A stretch of DNA of 59,765 nt from NCBI GenBank assembly GCA_012523305.1, contig JAAYIV010000048.1, positions 1-59,765 on the forward strand, written 5' to 3'. The translations under genes and the position numbers were made by a program. The notes under the pieces were generated by a model, which was given only the letters and a program-made list of their open reading frames with translations, ran no database searches and was not told the origin of the DNA. Of this stretch, positions 31,017-45,607 are shown one piece after another. How positions within the stretch are numbered: the stretch's first letter is position 1; the number at the start of each line of letters is the position of its first letter. The stretch is from Spirochaetales bacterium (GTDB lineage Bacteria > Spirochaetota > Spirochaetia > Sphaerochaetales > Sphaerochaetaceae).

Positions 31017-32294
31017 GTGTCGCTGTATCTTATCACCAAAGATGTAAGGTTACGGGCTTTGGTGAACCGAAGCTTTTCCACACCTGTCTCGGCAGCCATT
31101 TCGATGGAACAGCTTGAAAAAATCCTTTCCATAGCAAGTAATGATCCTTCGCCAATAATCATCATCGACGCTGATACTGCTTTTATCCCGCTTGAAAAAC
31201 TACTTTCATTATTTGTCATGGAAGAAATCCGAGGATTAAAAATTTTCCTCATCCCCCGGATGAAAATGCATCCCCACTGCACCGATGGGATCATGAGAGA
31301 TTGCAATGCCCTGTTTGTTTCAAAACCGGTGACAATGGACAAGTTGATCGATGCGATTATCGAATTTGGAGGATTACATATTCTTTCAAAGCACCTCGCA
31401 AAAGAGACAATCGATTCATATCTCGAACAAAGGACCGACCCTTTCTCTTCTATACTGGTAGGAACATCGAGAACAATACAAACGATCAGGGCGACAATTC
31501 GTCGCCTGGGGCCACATTTTAACTGTGTCCACATCAACGGGGAAACGGGAACAGGAAAAGAAATCGTTGCCCAGCTGCTTTATTTGCACTCAGGTTGTCC
31601 TAAAGCGATGGTAATCATCAATTGCGCTTCATTAAAAGGATCTTTACAACAATCACTGTTATTCGGCCATATAAAAGGAGCTTTCACTGATGCAAAAGAA
31701 CCACGTCAAGGATTGCTGGCACAAGCTCACAACGGCATATTATTTCTTGATGAAATAGAACTGCTCGAACATGAATCGCAGGGACAGTTGCTTCGGTTGT
31801 TGGAAACCGGGAAGTTTCGCCCGATCGGATCAGATTACACTATCAATAGCCATTTCAAATTGATCACCGCGTCAAACATTCCGTTGGAAGTGTTGGTTGA
31901 AAGCGGTAAGTTACGTAAAGATTTCTATAATCGGATCGACCAGTTCACTATTGAGATACCGCCGTTACGCGACCGTATCGAAGATATTCCATTGCTCATC
32001 AACCATAGGCTGGAGCAACTGTCTGAAAAACGAAAACTTGATAACCGGACATTTGAGCTGATGCTTTCATATCCTTGGCCAGGGAATGTACGTGAATTAT
32101 TTCATGAATTGGATACGATAGTATTCTTTAGCAAAGGCTTGGAAACACTTTCATGCAATGCTGTCTTGACGATGAGCCACCTCAGGAGAAACGGTAAAAG
32201 CACCTTCTTAAAAAACCAACGAAAAGTCTCAGAAGCCTATCCATCTTATTCTTGTACTGAAATGCAAGAACCTTGTGGAAAACCTGTGGATTAA
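31017..32294 (+). CDS. NtrC-type AAA+ regulator without DNA-binding domain
   Basis: A 425-residue protein. The N-terminal 130 residues resemble a response-regulator receiver (possible acceptor Asp in IIIIDADTAF, Lys in FVSKPV), but the paired acidic residues near the N-terminus are reduced to one. The AAA+ domain (about 145-375) has Walker A NGETGTGKE, the sigma-54 contact loop as GAFTDA instead of GAFTGA, Walker B GILFLDEIELL and an arginine-rich RLRKDFYNRIDQF-like segment. After PWPGNVRELFHELD only about 60 residues remain, with no Fis-type helix-turn-helix. It may activate sigma-54 RNA polymerase from solution or act only through proteins. The start is GTG, with CGGAG six bases upstream. 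It is a single gene, convergent with murA. Confidence 0.88.
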   Translation: MSLYLITKDVRLRALVNRSFSTPVSAAISMEQLEKILSIASNDPSPIIIIDADTAFIPLEKLLSLFVMEEIRGLKIFLIPRMKMHPHCTDGIMRDCNALFVSKPVTMDKLIDAIIEFGGLHILSKHLAKETIDSYLEQRTDPFSSILVGTSRTIQTIRATIRRLGPHFNCVHINGETGTGKEIVAQLLYLHSGCPKAMVIINCASLKGSLQQSLLFGHIKGAFTDAKEPRQGLLAQAHNGILFLDEIELLEHESQGQLLRLLETGKFRPIGSDYTINSHFKLITASNIPLEVLVESGKLRKDFYNRIDQFTIEIPPLRDRIEDIPLLINHRLEQLSEKRKLDNRTFELMLSYPWPGNVRELFHELDTIVFFSKGLETLSCNAVLTMSHLRRNGKSTFLKNQRKVSEAYPSYSCTEMQEPCGKPVD

Positions 32295-32538
32295 TATGTC
32301 TCTAGGTGGTACATAAACACCAATAAAATGACTATGACAATTATATAAGAATTGCTTAAGAATTAGGTAACTAGGAATTATTTATTTCATTAATAAGCAA
32401 TAAGTTGACATCTTGCCTTATATCTGTTGTTACATCAGTAATTTCAACATGTCCATCACTTGGGAATAACACTAGTAGCTGTTATGTGAAATAACCTGTG
32501 GATAACTTGTGCAATAGTGTGGGAAAGAAGGTGGATTA
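32274..32538 (+). other. DnaA-box-like cluster in the gap between convergent genes
   Basis: All boxes read in the same orientation on the plus strand. TGTGGAAAA (32274-32282) and TGTGGATTA (32285-32293) lie at the very end of the AAA+ gene. A perfect consensus TGTGGATAA is at 32497-32505, TGTGGGAAA at 32518-32526, and a weaker GGTGGATTA at 32530-32538. The 284-base gap 32295-32578 is AT-rich and holds no gene that I can see, only a small inverted repeat (GTTAT/ATAAC near 32480-32495). It is too far from dnaA to be an ordinary dnaA promoter region; it could be a DnaA-titrating or accessory origin site. Confidence 0.5.
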
Positions 32539-32578: not shown

Positions 32579-33874
32579 TTATCGCACTCGAGTAATCAAA
32601 GCCCCAACCCCCAGAAGCTTCTCTTCCAATCGTTCATACCCCCGCTCGATCTGGTAAATATTTTGGATGGTAGAAACACCATCGGCACATAATGCAGCAA
32701 TCACTAGTGCCATTCCGGCCCTGACATCTGGACTTGTCAGATTTGCACCTTTTAAGCGGGACGGACCATTGATCACCGCCCTATGCGGATCGCAAAGGAT
32801 AATATCTGCACCCATCCTTACCAGCCAATCGATAAAGAACATCCGAGTCTCATACATTTTTTCATGGATAAGGATCGTTCCCTTCATTTGGGTTGAAACG
32901 ACGGTAATGATACTAAGCAGGTCTGCCGGGAACCCGGGCCATGGCGCATCGTCAATTTTTGAAGTTCCTCCGTCAAGAGCCCGTTTGATAACCCTTGACT
33001 GAACAGTAGGAACTATGATGGAGTCGGGTCCGTTTTTGATCCACTCTACCCCGATTCGCTTGAATCCCATTTGGATCATCGGAAGGTGTTTGATATTCAC
33101 CCCTTTCAATTCCAATTCTCCTCCGGTAGCCGCGGCAAGCCCGATGTAAGAGCCGACTTCCATGTAATCCGAACCGATCGTGAATGTGCATCCGCTGAGA
33201 GTTGCGACACCTTCAATGGTCAGCAAATTGGATCCTATACCGGAGATGTTTGCACCCATAGCGACTAGCATGTTGCATAAATCCTGTACATGCGGTTCAC
33301 AGGCAGCATTACTGATTACGGTGATACCTTCACAAAGGACCGAAGCCATCAATACATTTTCGGTAGCGGTAACTGAAGCTTCGTCAAGGAAGATCGTAGT
33401 ACCTTTCAGTTTTCCGGCAACAACTTCCAGCCGTCCTTCGGGGGTGATCGTACAGGTACACCCTAACGCTTCCAAACCCAAAAAATGAGTATCAAGACGC
33501 CTATAACCGATCACATCACCGCCAGGAGGTGGAAGTGATACATATTTTGCCCTTACCGCCAAAGGGCCTGCCAATAGGATTGAGGCCCTGATCGAGTCGA
33601 CAATCTCTACCGGTAACGATTCTAGTGGCAGGGAATTTTTACGATTGCCGGTAATCTTAATTTTATGGCGATCCAACGTTTCAATCTCTGACCCCAGAGA
33701 CTCCAGCAACATCAACATCGCCCCCACATCTTCGATTTCCGGAATATTTTTCAAGATGACAGGCTCATCGGTTAACAAGGTCGCAGCAAGACATGGCAAT
33801 GCCGCATTCTTATTACCACTGATTTCTATCGATCCAGAAAGGGGCTTCCCTCCGGTAATCACATATGATGCCAT
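32579..33874 (-). CDS. murA: UDP-N-acetylglucosamine 1-carboxyvinyltransferase
   Basis: The first committed step of peptidoglycan precursor synthesis, transferring enolpyruvate from PEP to UDP-GlcNAc in the cytosol. The 431-residue protein has the N-terminal SGNKNAALPCLAATLL motif with the catalytic-site Lys and Asn, and late DVRAGMALVIAALCADG. The catalytic-loop residue that is Cys115 in E. coli is Asp120 here (PPPGGDVIGYRR; codon 33515-33517). Enzymes with this Cys-to-Asp change stay active but are not alkylated by fosfomycin. The start is leaderless-type and divergent from the PfkB kinase. The gene is convergent with the AAA+ regulator. Confidence 0.97.
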   Translation of the reverse strand: MASYVITGGKPLSGSIEISGNKNAALPCLAATLLTDEPVILKNIPEIEDVGAMLMLLESLGSEIETLDRHKIKITGNRKNSLPLESLPVEIVDSIRASILLAGPLAVRAKYVSLPPPGGDVIGYRRLDTHFLGLEALGCTCTITPEGRLEVVAGKLKGTTIFLDEASVTATENVLMASVLCEGITVISNAACEPHVQDLCNMLVAMGANISGIGSNLLTIEGVATLSGCTFTIGSDYMEVGSYIGLAAATGGELELKGVNIKHLPMIQMGFKRIGVEWIKNGPDSIIVPTVQSRVIKRALDGGTSKIDDAPWPGFPADLLSIITVVSTQMKGTILIHEKMYETRMFFIDWLVRMGADIILCDPHRAVINGPSRLKGANLTSPDVRAGMALVIAALCADGVSTIQNIYQIERGYERLEEKLLGVGALITRVR

Positions 33875-39289: not shown

Positions 39290-39319
39290 AGTATATCGAC
39301 CCCAGTATCGGTATGTCAA
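39290..39319 (-). promoter_or_regulatory. Strong promoter of rpmH-rnpA
   Basis: On the minus strand a perfect -35 TTGACA (39314-39319) overlaps the TGA stop of the DUF721 gene, followed by 18 bases and TATACT (39290-39295). The predicted leader is about 65 bases and carries a normal ribosome site. Confidence 0.7.
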
Positions 39320-39612
39320 GTATCGCCTCCGATGCGTACTTGTACCCGTTTGATCCCCAAGTCAGGATACAGCAAAGAAATCTTTTCGACAATAGCTTGT
39401 TTTCTCATCGTAATAATTGTCGCCCAAGTCGGATGATCGGCTTTAACGATCAGTGTGCTACCCTTAATGTCAATGATTTTTGTATGCAAGGCTATATCGC
39501 TACCAACCACCTCAACCCAATTACGTACCAATGCAACATTAGGATTCGAACCATCGCATTTTAGTTTTGCTAATAATATGTCCAGCAATTGCGCAGCACT
39601 TTTATCAGGCAT
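39316..39612 (-). CDS. DUF721 family protein (DciA-like helicase loader candidate)
   Basis: A 98-residue protein of the DUF721 family, with the typical RNWVEVVGSDIALHTKI block and ADHPTWATIITMRKQAIVEKI helix-strand region. DciA, the ancestral bacterial replicative helicase operator, belongs to this family, and the position directly after recF next to dnaA-dnaN fits such a role. Starting at the ATG at 39612 puts GGGAGG about ten bases upstream; it overlaps the recF stop by eight bases. This is a short version without an extended disordered tail. Confidence 0.85.
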   Translation of the reverse strand: MPDKSAAQLLDILLAKLKCDGSNPNVALVRNWVEVVGSDIALHTKIIDIKGSTLIVKADHPTWATIITMRKQAIVEKISLLYPDLGIKRVQVRIGGDT

Positions 39613-40693
39613 CCTGTACAAACCTCCCTTCAGTCACAGTATACCGGATGTCATGTCCATTCCCCAGTTCTGATGAATATTTTTCCTCTGGAAGAAAAGT
39701 AAAGAACGCTTGGCTGTATGAACCCAACTGAGCAAGAAACAGTTCTCTTTTCGCTATATCAAGTTCAAGCAGTACGTCGTCAAGCAATACGATGGGATCT
39801 TTCCCTGTCTTTTGGCGATATAGGCTGGTTTGAGCGATACGGAAAATCAATGAAGCGAGTCTTAATTGTCCGGTAGATCCACTGGCAGAGAATATTCCTT
39901 TTGAATCCATGACGACAAACTGATCACGATGGATTCCGCTTGCCGTAGTAAGTAACTTGAGATCCCGTTCGAGTGTTCGTTCAAGCTTGGCGCAAATTTC
40001 TGCAACATGCGTGCAATCATGCCAAGAAGGCTTGTAAGCAATCCTGATTTCTTCATTCGCCCCCGAAACAATTTTATATAGAGAGGGGAGCACTTCGTTA
40101 AATTCAACCACTGCTTTGGCCCTTGCTTCTTGAATATGCAAACCGACCGAAGCAAGTTGTTCGTCATACAGGGGAATAAGAGTTACGTATCCTTCTTTGA
40201 TTGCTGCGTTACGCTGTCGTAATATTGCCCGATATCGTCTCAAATCATCAAAGAATAACGGATCGTGCATTGACATGGTCTGATCGAAAAAACGTCTTCG
40301 ATGTTCGGGAGTCCCCCGAACAAATTCAATGTCATCGTGAGAAAATACTATGCAAGGTATGTTATACACCAAATATTTTCGGTCTTTTATCTCCCTTCCG
40401 TCTATAAGGATTTCTCGTTTCCCGTCAATAAAACTAAAAGAAATCCTCTGTTGGCTGCCATCATCGGTTAGTACGACAGCAGAAAGGGCGAAATCTTTGT
40501 GCCCATGAGTAATGATATCTCTTAGGTTAAGAGTCTTGAACGAAGAACCATAGCAGAGCAAATAAAGAGCTTCGAGGAAGCTTGTTTTTCCTTGACCGTT
40601 GCCCCCTATCAACAGAATACGCTTATCATCGACGGGAACCATAGAGTTTTCTAGATTTCTAAAATTCTTGAAACCAACCGATTGGAAGCGCAT
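39605..40693 (-). CDS. recF: DNA replication and repair protein RecF
   Basis: A 362-residue SMC-like ATPase that helps load RecA at gaps. Walker A is GGNGQGKTSFLEAL, the ABC-type signature is SGSTGQLRLASLIFRIA, and Walker B is PIVLLDDVLLELD. Its ATG overlaps the dnaN stop by one base (TGATG), so translation is coupled. Length is usual for RecF (about 360). Confidence 0.97.
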   Translation of the reverse strand: MRFQSVGFKNFRNLENSMVPVDDKRILLIGGNGQGKTSFLEALYLLCYGSSFKTLNLRDIITHGHKDFALSAVVLTDDGSQQRISFSFIDGKREILIDGREIKDRKYLVYNIPCIVFSHDDIEFVRGTPEHRRRFFDQTMSMHDPLFFDDLRRYRAILRQRNAAIKEGYVTLIPLYDEQLASVGLHIQEARAKAVVEFNEVLPSLYKIVSGANEEIRIAYKPSWHDCTHVAEICAKLERTLERDLKLLTTASGIHRDQFVVMDSKGIFSASGSTGQLRLASLIFRIAQTSLYRQKTGKDPIVLLDDVLLELDIAKRELFLAQLGSYSQAFFTFLPEEKYSSELGNGHDIRYTVTEGRFVQDA

Positions 40694-41796
40694 CAGTCAA
40701 TCTGCATTGGCATGATGATATGGAAGTAGTCTTTTTCCGGATCCGGCTTGATGGTGATAGCCCTATTGGCCTCTGTAAAGCAGATAAGGAAATCTTGCCC
40801 TTCCATAACCTTGAGAGGACTCATCAAGTAAGAATAATTAATCGCCAAACGACAACTGGATCCCATATAGTCGCAGTTGATTGTTTCTTTAGCTTGACCG
40901 AAATCACTTTCTTCCGAACTGACGGTAACGCCACCCGCATCGATATCAAGATACATTCGCTTTGCCTTGTTTTCTACAAGCAACGAGACTCTTTTCAACG
41001 CTTCAAGCATATCGGATATCGACAAGCGGCAAATATTTGTCTGCGTTGCCGGAATAACGCGGCGGTAATTAGGGAATTGTCCCTTGATAAGCGCACAGTA
41101 CATGAATTGATCACCTATTCTGGCAAAGACAATCGATTCGGTAACCGCTAAAGACAACGTGCCTTCTCCTGTGCCACTTTTCTTCAAAAGCGATAAGAAT
41201 TTAGCAGGGATGATAGCACTTTGGAACGGATTGATTATCTCTTCGAGATGGCGTGTAATATATGAAAGGCGTCTACCGTCGGTAGCCACCATGGTCAATC
41301 CTTCCGGATTGTGCTCCAAGAATACACCATTCATAAAATATCGAGTTTCATCGTCACTGATTGCAAAAATAGTCTGATCTATCATGTCGAACATATCTTT
41401 CTGACCGATGGAAAACCATGCGTCACCGGGAGCTTCTTCCAATTGAGGGAATTTATCTGCTCCGATAGTCCTCAACTCAAAATTAATTGAATTTCTTTCA
41501 GGATGGATAAACAGTTTATCTCCGACTTCTTCAAAAATGATATTTTCATCTGGCAATGCCCTAAGAATTCCAAGAAACTTATCACAAAACACTGTCGTGC
41601 TTCCATCTTCTATCGTCTCGACAGGCAGTACCGTTTTAAAACCGATTTTTTGATCAGTCGCCTTTACAGTAAGATTGTTTTCAGACGTTTCAAGCAATAC
41701 GTTGGATACTATGCTCAATGTATTGCGCTGAGATGTAAATTCGAGGGCAAGCATGATTTCTCTTAACAATATGTTTTTTTGACAGGCGAACTTCAT
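40693..41796 (-). CDS. dnaN: DNA polymerase III beta subunit (sliding clamp)
   Basis: A 367-residue clamp protein with three repeated domains, including RDIMLALEFTSQRNTLSIVS-like first-domain sequence, ATDGRRLSYITRHLE in the second, and a typical end FHIIMPMQID carrying the conserved P-M-Q-type C-terminus. It forms the ring that tethers DNA polymerase. AGGAG lies seven bases before the ATG. Its upstream gap of 214 bases towards dnaA carries the oriC candidate. Confidence 0.97.
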   Translation of the reverse strand: MKFACQKNILLREIMLALEFTSQRNTLSIVSNVLLETSENNLTVKATDQKIGFKTVLPVETIEDGSTTVFCDKFLGILRALPDENIIFEEVGDKLFIHPERNSINFELRTIGADKFPQLEEAPGDAWFSIGQKDMFDMIDQTIFAISDDETRYFMNGVFLEHNPEGLTMVATDGRRLSYITRHLEEIINPFQSAIIPAKFLSLLKKSGTGEGTLSLAVTESIVFARIGDQFMYCALIKGQFPNYRRVIPATQTNICRLSISDMLEALKRVSLLVENKAKRMYLDIDAGGVTVSSEESDFGQAKETINCDYMGSSCRLAINYSYLMSPLKVMEGQDFLICFTEANRAITIKPDPEKDYFHIIMPMQID

Positions 41797-42010
41797 GATA
41801 CAACTCCTATTTATATAAATACAGTAGTCGTAGTAATAATAGCATGGAAACTGTGGAAAAATACACTAATTCCATGTTGTCCAAATCAATGAATACTGTA
41901 AAAGTTGTGCAGTACTCGTCCTTTTAATCCACAAGCTTTCCACATTATCCACAGTGCTGTTAGTTATTACCATTCTTTCAACAAGTTGTACAGCAGTTAT
42001 CAACAGGTTA
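41797..42010. other. oriC: Candidate replication origin (oriC) between dnaN and dnaA
   Basis: The gap contains a perfect DnaA box TTATCCACA (41945-41953), near-boxes TAATCCACA (41925-41933), CTTTCCACA (41936-41944) and TTATCAACA (41998-42006) on the plus strand, and TTTTCCACA on the minus strand (41852-41860). Beyond the last box come a 9-base spacer, a trinucleotide run and an AT-only palindrome. The overall arrangement is boxes, spacer, trio, AT-rich unwinding site. It sits beside the point where gene direction flips (dnaA minus, gyrB plus). Confidence 0.7.
41808..41842 (-). other. DnaA-trio-like run and AT-rich palindrome
   Basis: On the plus strand 41822-41842 reads in triplets CAG, TAG, TCG, TAG, TAA, TAA, TAG, so the minus strand reads CTA TTA TTA CTA CGA CTA CTG away from the box TTTTCCACA. 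This matches the DnaA-trio layout known from Bacillus. It runs into TATTTATATAAATA (41808-41821), a perfect AT-only palindrome suited to strand opening, which abuts the dnaN ribosome site. Confidence 0.6.
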
Positions 42011-43426
42011 TTATTTGTCGCGTTTATACTCCTGAATGCGACGCAATAACGTTTGTAGTGATTCGCTCATTGCCGGATCGCTTTGGATTAATCCTGCTAT
42101 CCTCTGTACCGAATGCATAACCGTAGTATGATCCCTTCCACCGAATTCATAACCGATTTCTGTTGTGGAAAATTCAGTTATATCCCTGGCGATATACATT
42201 GCAAATTGTCTGGGCAGAACCACTGATTTCGTTCTCTTTTTGCCCTTGATGTCGTAAGGCGATATATTGAAAAATTCAGCTGCTACCCTGATTATCACGT
42301 CGACGGTAATAGATTGATCCTTAGCTATGGAAAGTGACGACTTGAGTTGTTCGCGTGCGATATCAAGAGTGATCTCTTTTCCCAACAATTGGCTATAAGC
42401 AATTAGTTTCATCAATGATGATTCGAGATCTCTTACATTGGTATTTACATTCCTACTTATGTAATCGAGAACTTCTCCGGTGATAATACAATCCTTTTCC
42501 TTACATTTCCGGTGCAAAATAGCCAGTCTGGTTTCAAAATCAGGAGGTTGCAAATCAACGTTGATTCCACGGGTAAACCTATTTTTCAATCGATCGGCGA
42601 TATCCTGTAATTCATGGATTGGACGGTCACATGTAAAAACCAACTGTTTGTTTGCTTCAAAAAGATTGTTAAACACATGGAACAATTCTTCTTGCGTCGA
42701 GTCTTTTTTTTGCAAAAAATGAATATCATCGATAAGCAACACATCCGCCTTACGATATTTATTCCTGAACTGAGGCGTTTTCTTCTCCGGAATCGCTTGT
42801 ATGAACTCGTTAGTGAACATTTCTGCCGTCACATATACCACCTGAAGCTCAGGCGTAGTTTCCTGAATATAATTCCCTATGGATTGGATCAAATGTGTCT
42901 TGCCCAGACCTACTCCACCATAGATCAGGCATGGGTTGTAGCTCACTCCGGGATTCTTTGCGATTGCCAAAGAAACGTTATAGGCAAAAATGCTATTATC
43001 TCCGACGACGAATGAATCAAATTGATAATTTGGATTGATATTTGGGTCTTTTGCTTTTTTCTGGACAGGAACGATTGCCTGATCCGTCGTGCTCCTAGGG
43101 GCTTCCTTCGGGTTGTTGTCCCGAGCAACCGCATGCTTTCTAATCTGTTCGGTTTCTTCGCTGCTTGGTTTTTTGATGTTAAAATCAACAGCGATCTCTT
43201 CTCCGGTCAATTCGTGCAGCATATCGGTAATCTGTGCTTTGTATTGAGCCGAGATATAGTCTTTGATGAACAAAGAAGGAACGGCCAGAATCAGCTTGTT
43301 CTTCTCAGATCCCGCATATGAAATCCGGCCTAACCATGTGATATTTTCTTGTTCAGACAACACTGTCTGCATTCGGGCGACAACCTCGTCCCAGAATACT
43401 TTATAGTTGAATTTTTCCGACGGCAT
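42011..43426 (-). CDS. dnaA: Chromosomal replication initiator DnaA
   Basis: A 471-residue initiator ATPase that binds DnaA boxes and opens oriC. Domain I covers about 1-85, a linker about 86-135, the AAA+ domain has Walker A GGVGLGKTHLIQ and Walker B DVLLIDDIHFL, and the C-terminal DNA-binding domain carries EIGYEFGGRDHTTVMHSVQ. The start at 43426 (MPSEKFNYKVFWDE) fits homology; starts further up (43456 ATG, 43462 TTG) are open but would overlap the promoter. It is divergent from gyrB. Confidence 0.97.
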   Translation of the reverse strand: MPSEKFNYKVFWDEVVARMQTVLSEQENITWLGRISYAGSEKNKLILAVPSLFIKDYISAQYKAQITDMLHELTGEEIAVDFNIKKPSSEETEQIRKHAVARDNNPKEAPRSTTDQAIVPVQKKAKDPNINPNYQFDSFVVGDNSIFAYNVSLAIAKNPGVSYNPCLIYGGVGLGKTHLIQSIGNYIQETTPELQVVYVTAEMFTNEFIQAIPEKKTPQFRNKYRKADVLLIDDIHFLQKKDSTQEELFHVFNNLFEANKQLVFTCDRPIHELQDIADRLKNRFTRGINVDLQPPDFETRLAILHRKCKEKDCIITGEVLDYISRNVNTNVRDLESSLMKLIAYSQLLGKEITLDIAREQLKSSLSIAKDQSITVDVIIRVAAEFFNISPYDIKGKKRTKSVVLPRQFAMYIARDITEFSTTEIGYEFGGRDHTTVMHSVQRIAGLIQSDPAMSESLQTLLRRIQEYKRDK

Positions 43427-43433
43427 GTTTTGT

Positions 43434-43462
43434 ATCTTACTCCACCCGGTTGGCATTGGCAA
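43434..43462 (-). promoter_or_regulatory. Leaderless-type promoter of dnaA
   Basis: On the minus strand TTGCCA (five of six), 17 bases, TAAGAT, then seven bases and the ATG at 43426. GGAG occurs 13 bases before the ATG, which is too far for a normal ribosome site and lies within the promoter spacer. Confidence 0.55.
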
Positions 43463-43556
43463 GACTTAAGGCGGCTAAGATATTATTCTTCTTTAAAGAT
43501 ATATTAAAAACTTATGATATAAGCAAATAAAATGATTGGAAAAATGCTTGGCACCC

Positions 43557-43585
43557 TTTACATTCTCCGTTAAAAGTGATACTAT
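43557..43585 (+). promoter_or_regulatory. Possible promoter of gyrB
   Basis: TTTACA (43557-43562), 17 bases and TACTAT (43580-43585) in the AT-rich dnaA-gyrB gap. The -10 matches only four of six, so this is tentative. The rest of the gap (43463-43627) has no DnaA box that I can see. Confidence 0.35.
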
Positions 43586-43615
43586 ATCGACGTATAGCAT
43601 TCTCATATCTTATAA

Positions 43616-45607
<1,992 letters not shown>

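Follow-up and report, generated by a model that had tools for sequence, protein, structure and literature searches.

The window analysed here, a stretch of 59,765 nucleotides, is one entire contig of a 2.56-Mb, 187-contig Sphaerochaetaceae genome, and its DnaA is nearest to those of uncultured Sphaerochaetaceae and Spirochaetales assemblies. Its minus strand carries, in this order, dnaA, dnaN, recF, dciA, rnpA and yidC, with gyrB and gyrA running divergently on the plus strand. The dnaA gene (42011-43462, minus strand) codes for a replication initiator DnaA of 483 aa with the Pfam domains Bac_DnaA, Bac_DnaA_C and DnaA_N, whose best solved relative is the B. subtilis DnaA (8BTG, E=1e-115). It is followed by dnaN (40693-41796, minus strand), encoding the DNA polymerase III sliding clamp with its three DNA_pol3_beta Pfam domains; a GGAG at 41804-41807 on the same strand, 7 bases 5' of the ATG, is the probable dnaN ribosome-binding site. 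Adjoining recF is the gene for DciA (39316-39621, minus strand; Pfam PF05258, E=1e-14), an ancestral helicase loader or operator, and this context of DciA beside recF has been reported for Spirochaetes (PMC5109545). On the other side of dnaA, a gap at 43463-43627 separates it from gyrB (43628-45607, plus strand). The synteny of dnaA and dnaN with a divergent gyrB is kept in nearly all relatives. Between the end of dnaA at 42011 and the start of dnaN at 41796 lies a gap of 214 bp (41797-42010), which is the subject of this analysis. Rfam and tRNA searches of the window returned no match, and an RNA element or tRNA as the identity of the gap was rejected on this ground.

The gap had been proposed, in a sequence-only reading of the window, as an oriC candidate with a Bacillus-like DnaA-trio element and as containing one perfect and four near DnaA-boxes. 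The perfect box is indeed present as TTATCCACA (41945-41953, plus strand), and the near boxes number five rather than four, three of them with one mismatch and two with two. The former are TTTTCCACA (41852-41860, minus strand), hereafter the BUS box after the basal unwinding system (BUS) of bacterial origins, which is the counterpart of B. subtilis box #6, together with TAATCCACA (41925-41933, plus strand) and TTATCAACA (41997-42005, plus strand); the latter are CTTTCCACA (41936-41944, plus strand) and TTGTCCAAA (41877-41885, plus strand). A further, degenerate box with three mismatches, TACTGCACA, lies at 41906-41914 on the minus strand, and relatives have better boxes at the same position. 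Counting boxes with up to two mismatches, no other interval of this length in the window is as crowded, the gap having 6 where the mean is 0.7. The box density of the dnaA-dnaN gap is 5 times that of the region upstream of dnaA and 36 times that of dnaA coding DNA, and the cluster beside dnaA and dnaN is conserved in relatives.

Read along the minus strand, the BUS box is succeeded by GTTTCCATG (41843-41851), the triplets CTA TTA TTA CTA CGA CTA CTG (41822-41842) and the AT-only palindrome TATTTATATAAATA (41808-41821), all of which are found just as the sequence-only reading had described them. Its 9-base spacer, GTTTCCATG, is likewise there; however, the better reading is the class-wide register described below, in which the spacer measures 12 bp (41840-41851, minus strand) and consists of GTTTCCATG plus the first CTA, the latter being an extra triplet that can act as a triplet 0. 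GTTTCCATG abuts the BUS box and matches 5 of 9 box positions, making it a putative, degenerate second box with four mismatches; in a search for BUS elements a second tandem box was found in 57% of origins and was not obligatory, with weak second boxes allowed up to four mismatches (PMC8287927). In the 12-bp register DnaA-trios 1-3 are TTA TTA CTA (41831-41839, minus strand; bound strand 3'-AAT AAT GAT-5'), the deviant, cytosine-centred trio 4 is CGA, i.e. 3'-GCT-5' (41828-41830, minus strand), and trios 5-6 are CTA CTG, in frame with the others (41822-41827, minus strand). The adjoining AT-only stretch is the probable unwinding (DUE) region. The rule published for BUS elements calls for a box with up to two mismatches, a spacer of 0-16 bp and at least three 3'-NAN-5' trios (PMC8287927). 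Set against it, the window has a box with one mismatch, a spacer of 9 bp to the first triplet or 12 bp to the class register, and, on the strand opposite the box sequence, four consecutive trios 3'-GAT AAT AAT GAT-5' that are followed by GCT, GAT and GAC.

This element is the sole occurrence in the 60 kb of a box with up to two mismatches and three [CT]TA triplets within 16 bp, and first-order Markov sequences of the window's length yielded 0.125 such elements with three triplets and none with four. Across the whole genome the looser pattern CCACA-N4-16-[CT]TA x3 has four further isolated matches, against seven in a backward control; hence the loose pattern alone is not unique, and the specificity comes from the whole arrangement.

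To place the element in a wider context we compared about 170 relatives, with a first set of 117 distinct dnaA-dnaN gaps and a held-out set of 59 gaps comprising approximately one genome per genus. A strict element, defined as a box with up to two mismatches and at least three YTA triplets, was recovered in 85 of the 117 gaps, as against 0.2 in dinucleotide shuffles (maximum 1) and two on the reverse strand; the 32 relatives without a strict match are partly accounted for by diverged boxes. The held-out set gave the strict element in 49 of 59 gaps, with the same limit of six triplets. Of the 85 loci, 53 have a spacer of 12 bp from the box to the first perfect triplet and 16 have one of 9 bp, and since these two lengths differ by one triplet the same register holds in both. 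Aligned on this register, the class consensus reads TTWTCCACA, 12 bp, six YTA triplets and then AT-only DNA, the BUS box thus being conserved class-wide 12 bp ahead of the triplets. Over the 146 combined loci YTA occupies triplets 1-8 in 97, 96, 86, 60, 67, 51, 12 and 16%, about 10% being expected from composition, so that trio 6 is the last above background; the selection of loci by at least two YTA triplets near a box inflates triplets 1-2 and leaves the drop past the sixth unaffected. The 18 nt past trio 6 average 88% A+T in the same loci. Conservation of the boxes and triplets in relatives had been named in advance as a check on the proposal, and it turned out to be strong across the class. 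At the level of aligned sequences this comparison shows that a predicted opening module of the Bacillus type is typical of the class Spirochaetia; our literature search found no paper on DnaA-trios in this class.

The nearest relative (L003) lacks the palindrome of the AT-only stretch, which we rejected as a specific signal, what is conserved being the AT-richness itself. Palindromes of at least 10 bp do occur in the 18 nt past trio 6 in 33 of 146 loci, about twice the mean of 15 in shuffles, with no particular palindrome conserved. Two further loci also deserve mention. In a probable Borrelia relative (L055) the gap contains a CTA CTA ATA CAA CTA run preceded by ATTAGACAATTAGACAG, which is apparently a BUS with diverged DnaA-boxes. 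In another relative (L047, from genome G016) dnaN was not found in the fetched stretch directly downstream of dnaA, yet dnaA is still followed by a box and a CTACTACTATTG run; the element may therefore persist without an adjoining dnaN.

The pattern of conservation also bears on a different interpretation, namely that the triplets and box form a promoter, operator or 5' leader of dnaN, with DnaA as a regulator and unwinding taking place elsewhere. The triplet array lies about 46 nt ahead of dnaN and its TGC-TATTAT resembles an extended -10 element (TGCTATTAT in the window, with a similar TGTGNTATTAT in relatives); moreover, in a study on Borrelia DnaA is suggested as a regulator of dnaN (PMC9879097). 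However, the conservation seen in the alignment repeats every 3 bp, allows C and T to replace each other at the first base only and stops after six triplets, which a single -10 element is not expected to produce, and some lineages carry CCCTACTACTACTA, which lacks a -10-like motif. A search of the region for sigma-70-like sites found none on the dnaN strand, and a dnaN promoter as the sole explanation was rejected for want of a consensus match on that strand. We regard this alternative as highly improbable; an overlapping secondary role of the element in dnaN expression may nonetheless exist.

An unwinding element of this kind calls for an initiator equipped to use it, and here the window's DnaA was compared with the B. 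subtilis protein (8BTG), in which the roles of the trio-pocket residues have been described (PMC10721633). Asn187, Ile190, Ile193, Arg202, Glu228, Glu183, Lys222 and the arginine finger Arg264 are identical, so that the key residues for trio binding and oligomerisation are present as expected of a BUS-using DnaA; Glu223 is replaced by Asp, and Asn196, which contacts the third base, by Lys. The DNA-reading helix-turn-helix motif GGRDHTTV is identical as well. In B. subtilis the cryo-EM complex engages six trios, and when the middle trio adenine is substituted cytosine is the one base that keeps strand separation near wild type, supporting better initiation than guanine or thymine (PMC10721633). 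The authors of the BUS survey, for their part, suspected the existence of "deviant" trios without a middle adenine (PMC8287927). In the window's clade the aligned loci indicate that the cytosine-centred trio 4 is conserved, CGA or CGG being found in 9 of 11 loci with a DnaA identity of at least 67%, and we infer that the CGA of the window is an active trio. A preference for such trios across the class, for which the first set gave a hint with a middle G (bound-strand C) in 13 of 61 non-redundant loci at trio 4 and none at trio 5, was dropped, as it was not repeated in the held-out set, where trios 4 and 5 each had 3 such loci of 49. Because of this failure the cytosine-centred trio is to be taken as a trait of the clade only.

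The boxes farther upstream show a regularity of their own. It was examined in boxes with up to one mismatch, all of which, in the first set, lie more than 40 bp from the BUS box. Same-orientation boxes cluster at 44, 52-56, 64-65 and 76-79 bp from the BUS box, and opposite-orientation boxes at 73-74, 82-84, 92-94, 101-105, 112-113, 123, 134 and 144-146 bp and on. With the nearest box per locus, a Rayleigh test at 10.5 bp gave p=4e-9 for opposite (n=58) and p=7e-9 for same-orientation boxes (n=28) in the first set, and p=5e-6 for opposite boxes (n=41) in the held-out set, where the evidence for a same-orientation phase is weak (n=11, p=0.05). When the phase was fixed on the first set, the nearest opposite box was on phase in 38 of 41 held-out loci. 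The window follows suit with four opposite boxes on phase, TAATCCACA at 73, CTTTCCACA at 84, TTATCCACA at 93 and TTATCAACA at 145 bp from the BUS box, and with the degenerate box in the same orientation at 54 bp. The weak box TTGTCCAAA, at 25 bp and off phase, is probably there by chance. For a distal box to work in B. subtilis it must be at least 44 bp away and helically phased, which was read as DNA looping (PMC6669920), and phase and spacing of DnaA sites matter in E. coli too (reviewed in PMC5043065 and PMC4451416). On the evidence of the aligned gaps, the phased upstream boxes match engineered B. subtilis origins.

The same periodicity could also have come about through common ancestry of the loci and tandem duplication of 11-bp box units, without selection for one face of the DNA. 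Tandem TGTGGATAACT arrays in some origins and the common descent of the loci speak for such an origin, and the decoy-motif control was uninformative, as a single decoy had enough matches and it overlapped real boxes. Shared ancestry does weaken the p-values, which for opposite boxes become 7e-4 and, in the held-out set, 0.02 when only loci less than 50% identical are kept. Nevertheless, the nearest-box test holds in both sets, also with loci below 60% or 55% identity, the held-out opposite boxes giving p=2e-5 and 2e-4 at these two limits. This explanation of the phasing is unlikely in our estimate.

The position of the locus on the chromosome was assessed by GC skew, which had also been proposed as a check. 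Within the window the sign of the skew switches around dnaA, with a cumulative minimum at 43447, at the dnaA/gyrB divergence and 1.5 kb from the candidate oriC. In a closed relative (G003), whose numbering does not depend on dnaA, 40 stretches around the circle place the genome-wide minimum in the one that contains dnaA. As a skew minimum is the usual mark of a bacterial oriC, both observations favour the proposed placement. The minimum in the window might also be taken to mean that the origin opens in the dnaA-gyrB gap (43463-43627), with the boxes between dnaA and dnaN merely regulatory, and between dnaN and gyrB the duplex is indeed least stable in a stretch starting in that gap, at about 43480-43492. 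Yet divergent gene pairs are expected to have a skew minimum, which is too coarse a marker to separate sites 1.5 kb apart, and within the dnaA-gyrB gap there is no box with up to two mismatches, just as 78 of 114 regions upstream of dnaA across the class are boxless. An opening in this gap appears highly improbable. A second box cluster upstream of dnaA, as in the bipartite oriC of B. subtilis, is absent here, and given the boxless gap and the box-poor upstream regions of the class the origin looks one-part, unlike that of B. subtilis.

Taken together, the unique element, its conservation across the class, the DnaA residues and the skew of the closed relative favour the proposal of an oriC with a Bacillus-like trio element, and we predict, with a probability of roughly 0.94, that 41797-42010 is the oriC of this Sphaerochaetaceae spirochaete with a BUS-type unwinding element made up of box, trios and AT-rich region. 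Initiation would then begin with DnaA binding to the BUS box at 41852-41860, helped by its degenerate neighbour, after which an ATP-DnaA oligomer would extend onto one strand of the six triplets (41822-41839; 3'-AAT AAT GAT GCT GAT GAC-5'). The AT-rich stretch at 41808-41821 would melt and the replicative helicase would be loaded, probably with DciA. The boxes 54-145 bp upstream, on fixed helical faces, may deliver extra DnaA by DNA looping, comparable to the distal incC boxes of B. subtilis. If so, the probable origin of an uncultured spirochaete is placed to within about 200 bp.

The sequence-only reading rightly set the element between dnaA and dnaN, but presented this as a departure from a placing upstream of dnaA. 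In B. subtilis the unwinding region incC sits between dnaA and dnaN (PMC6669920), and so does the oriC of B. burgdorferi, to which DnaA binds in vitro (PMC9879097); the position beyond the end of dnaA is no peculiarity, as it matches that of incC. The likeness to the incC/BUS of B. subtilis extends to the order of box, spacer, co-oriented trios and AT-rich DNA before dnaN, and the spirochaete origins, like incC, have helically phased distal boxes that begin 44 bp upstream (PMC6669920) and six trios (PMC10721633). In contrast to B. subtilis, the window lacks a box cluster upstream of dnaA and is apparently one-part instead of two-part; it has a putative second tandem box that is degenerate and a cytosine-centred trio, and its clear upstream boxes all face the opposite way. 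BUS elements have been predicted in 85% of 2070 bacterial origins, in a survey whose main text does not mention spirochaetes (PMC8287927); the window conforms to its search rule, and the deviant trio that was only suspected there is conserved in a clade here. For the B. burgdorferi oriC only two boxes are hypothesised and trios are not discussed in the available text of PMC9879097. The E. coli oriC is similar in having DnaA-boxes with phase and spacing requirements (PMC5043065, PMC4451416), and dissimilar in lying apart from dnaA and having a weak BUS score (PMC8287927). The class-wide alignment provides natural support for the six-trio oligomer, for the phasing of distal boxes and, in one clade, for the amine rule for the middle trio base, and it supplies sequences with which each of these can be tested.

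Apart from the candidate origin, the window has a second DnaA-box locus at 32274-32516, downstream of murA (32579-33874, minus strand) and 9.4 kb from oriC. A perfect and a near box are separated there by 223 bp, and another near box lies 11 bp inward. In six relatives the locus carries two perfect boxes in the same orientation at a spacing of 221-223 bp. Among 139 family genomes 37 have a pair of perfect boxes 208-238 bp apart, and among 297 class genomes, a sample that includes some of the family genomes, 90 have one, as against none in a backward control. In the family the spacings pile up at 223 and 233 bp, and in the rest of the class near 212-216, 222-225 and 233-236 bp, with the clusters one helical turn apart. 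In three Sphaerochaetaceae genomes (G003, G023 and G420) the two-box locus lies 13-16 kb from dnaA. The datA and DARS2 sites of E. coli combine DnaA boxes with an IHF site, and the layout of the murA locus recalls theirs; by this analogy it is a possible datA/DARS-like DnaA-control site near oriC. More tentatively, and with the odds somewhat against it, the helically quantised distal boxes (44, 54, 64; 73, 83, 93... bp), a naturally working cytosine-centred trio long held in one clade and the two-box locus 9-16 kb away might together constitute a spirochaete oriC/datA-DARS control layout. Were this true, spirochaete origins would embody distal-box phasing and the cytosine-centred trio, two rules for which evidence has so far come from engineered DNA only. 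The source genome encodes one protein of the HU/IHF family, and the DNA between the two boxes at the murA locus is variable around a conserved TGTCAA...TTAT...TATAAA core.
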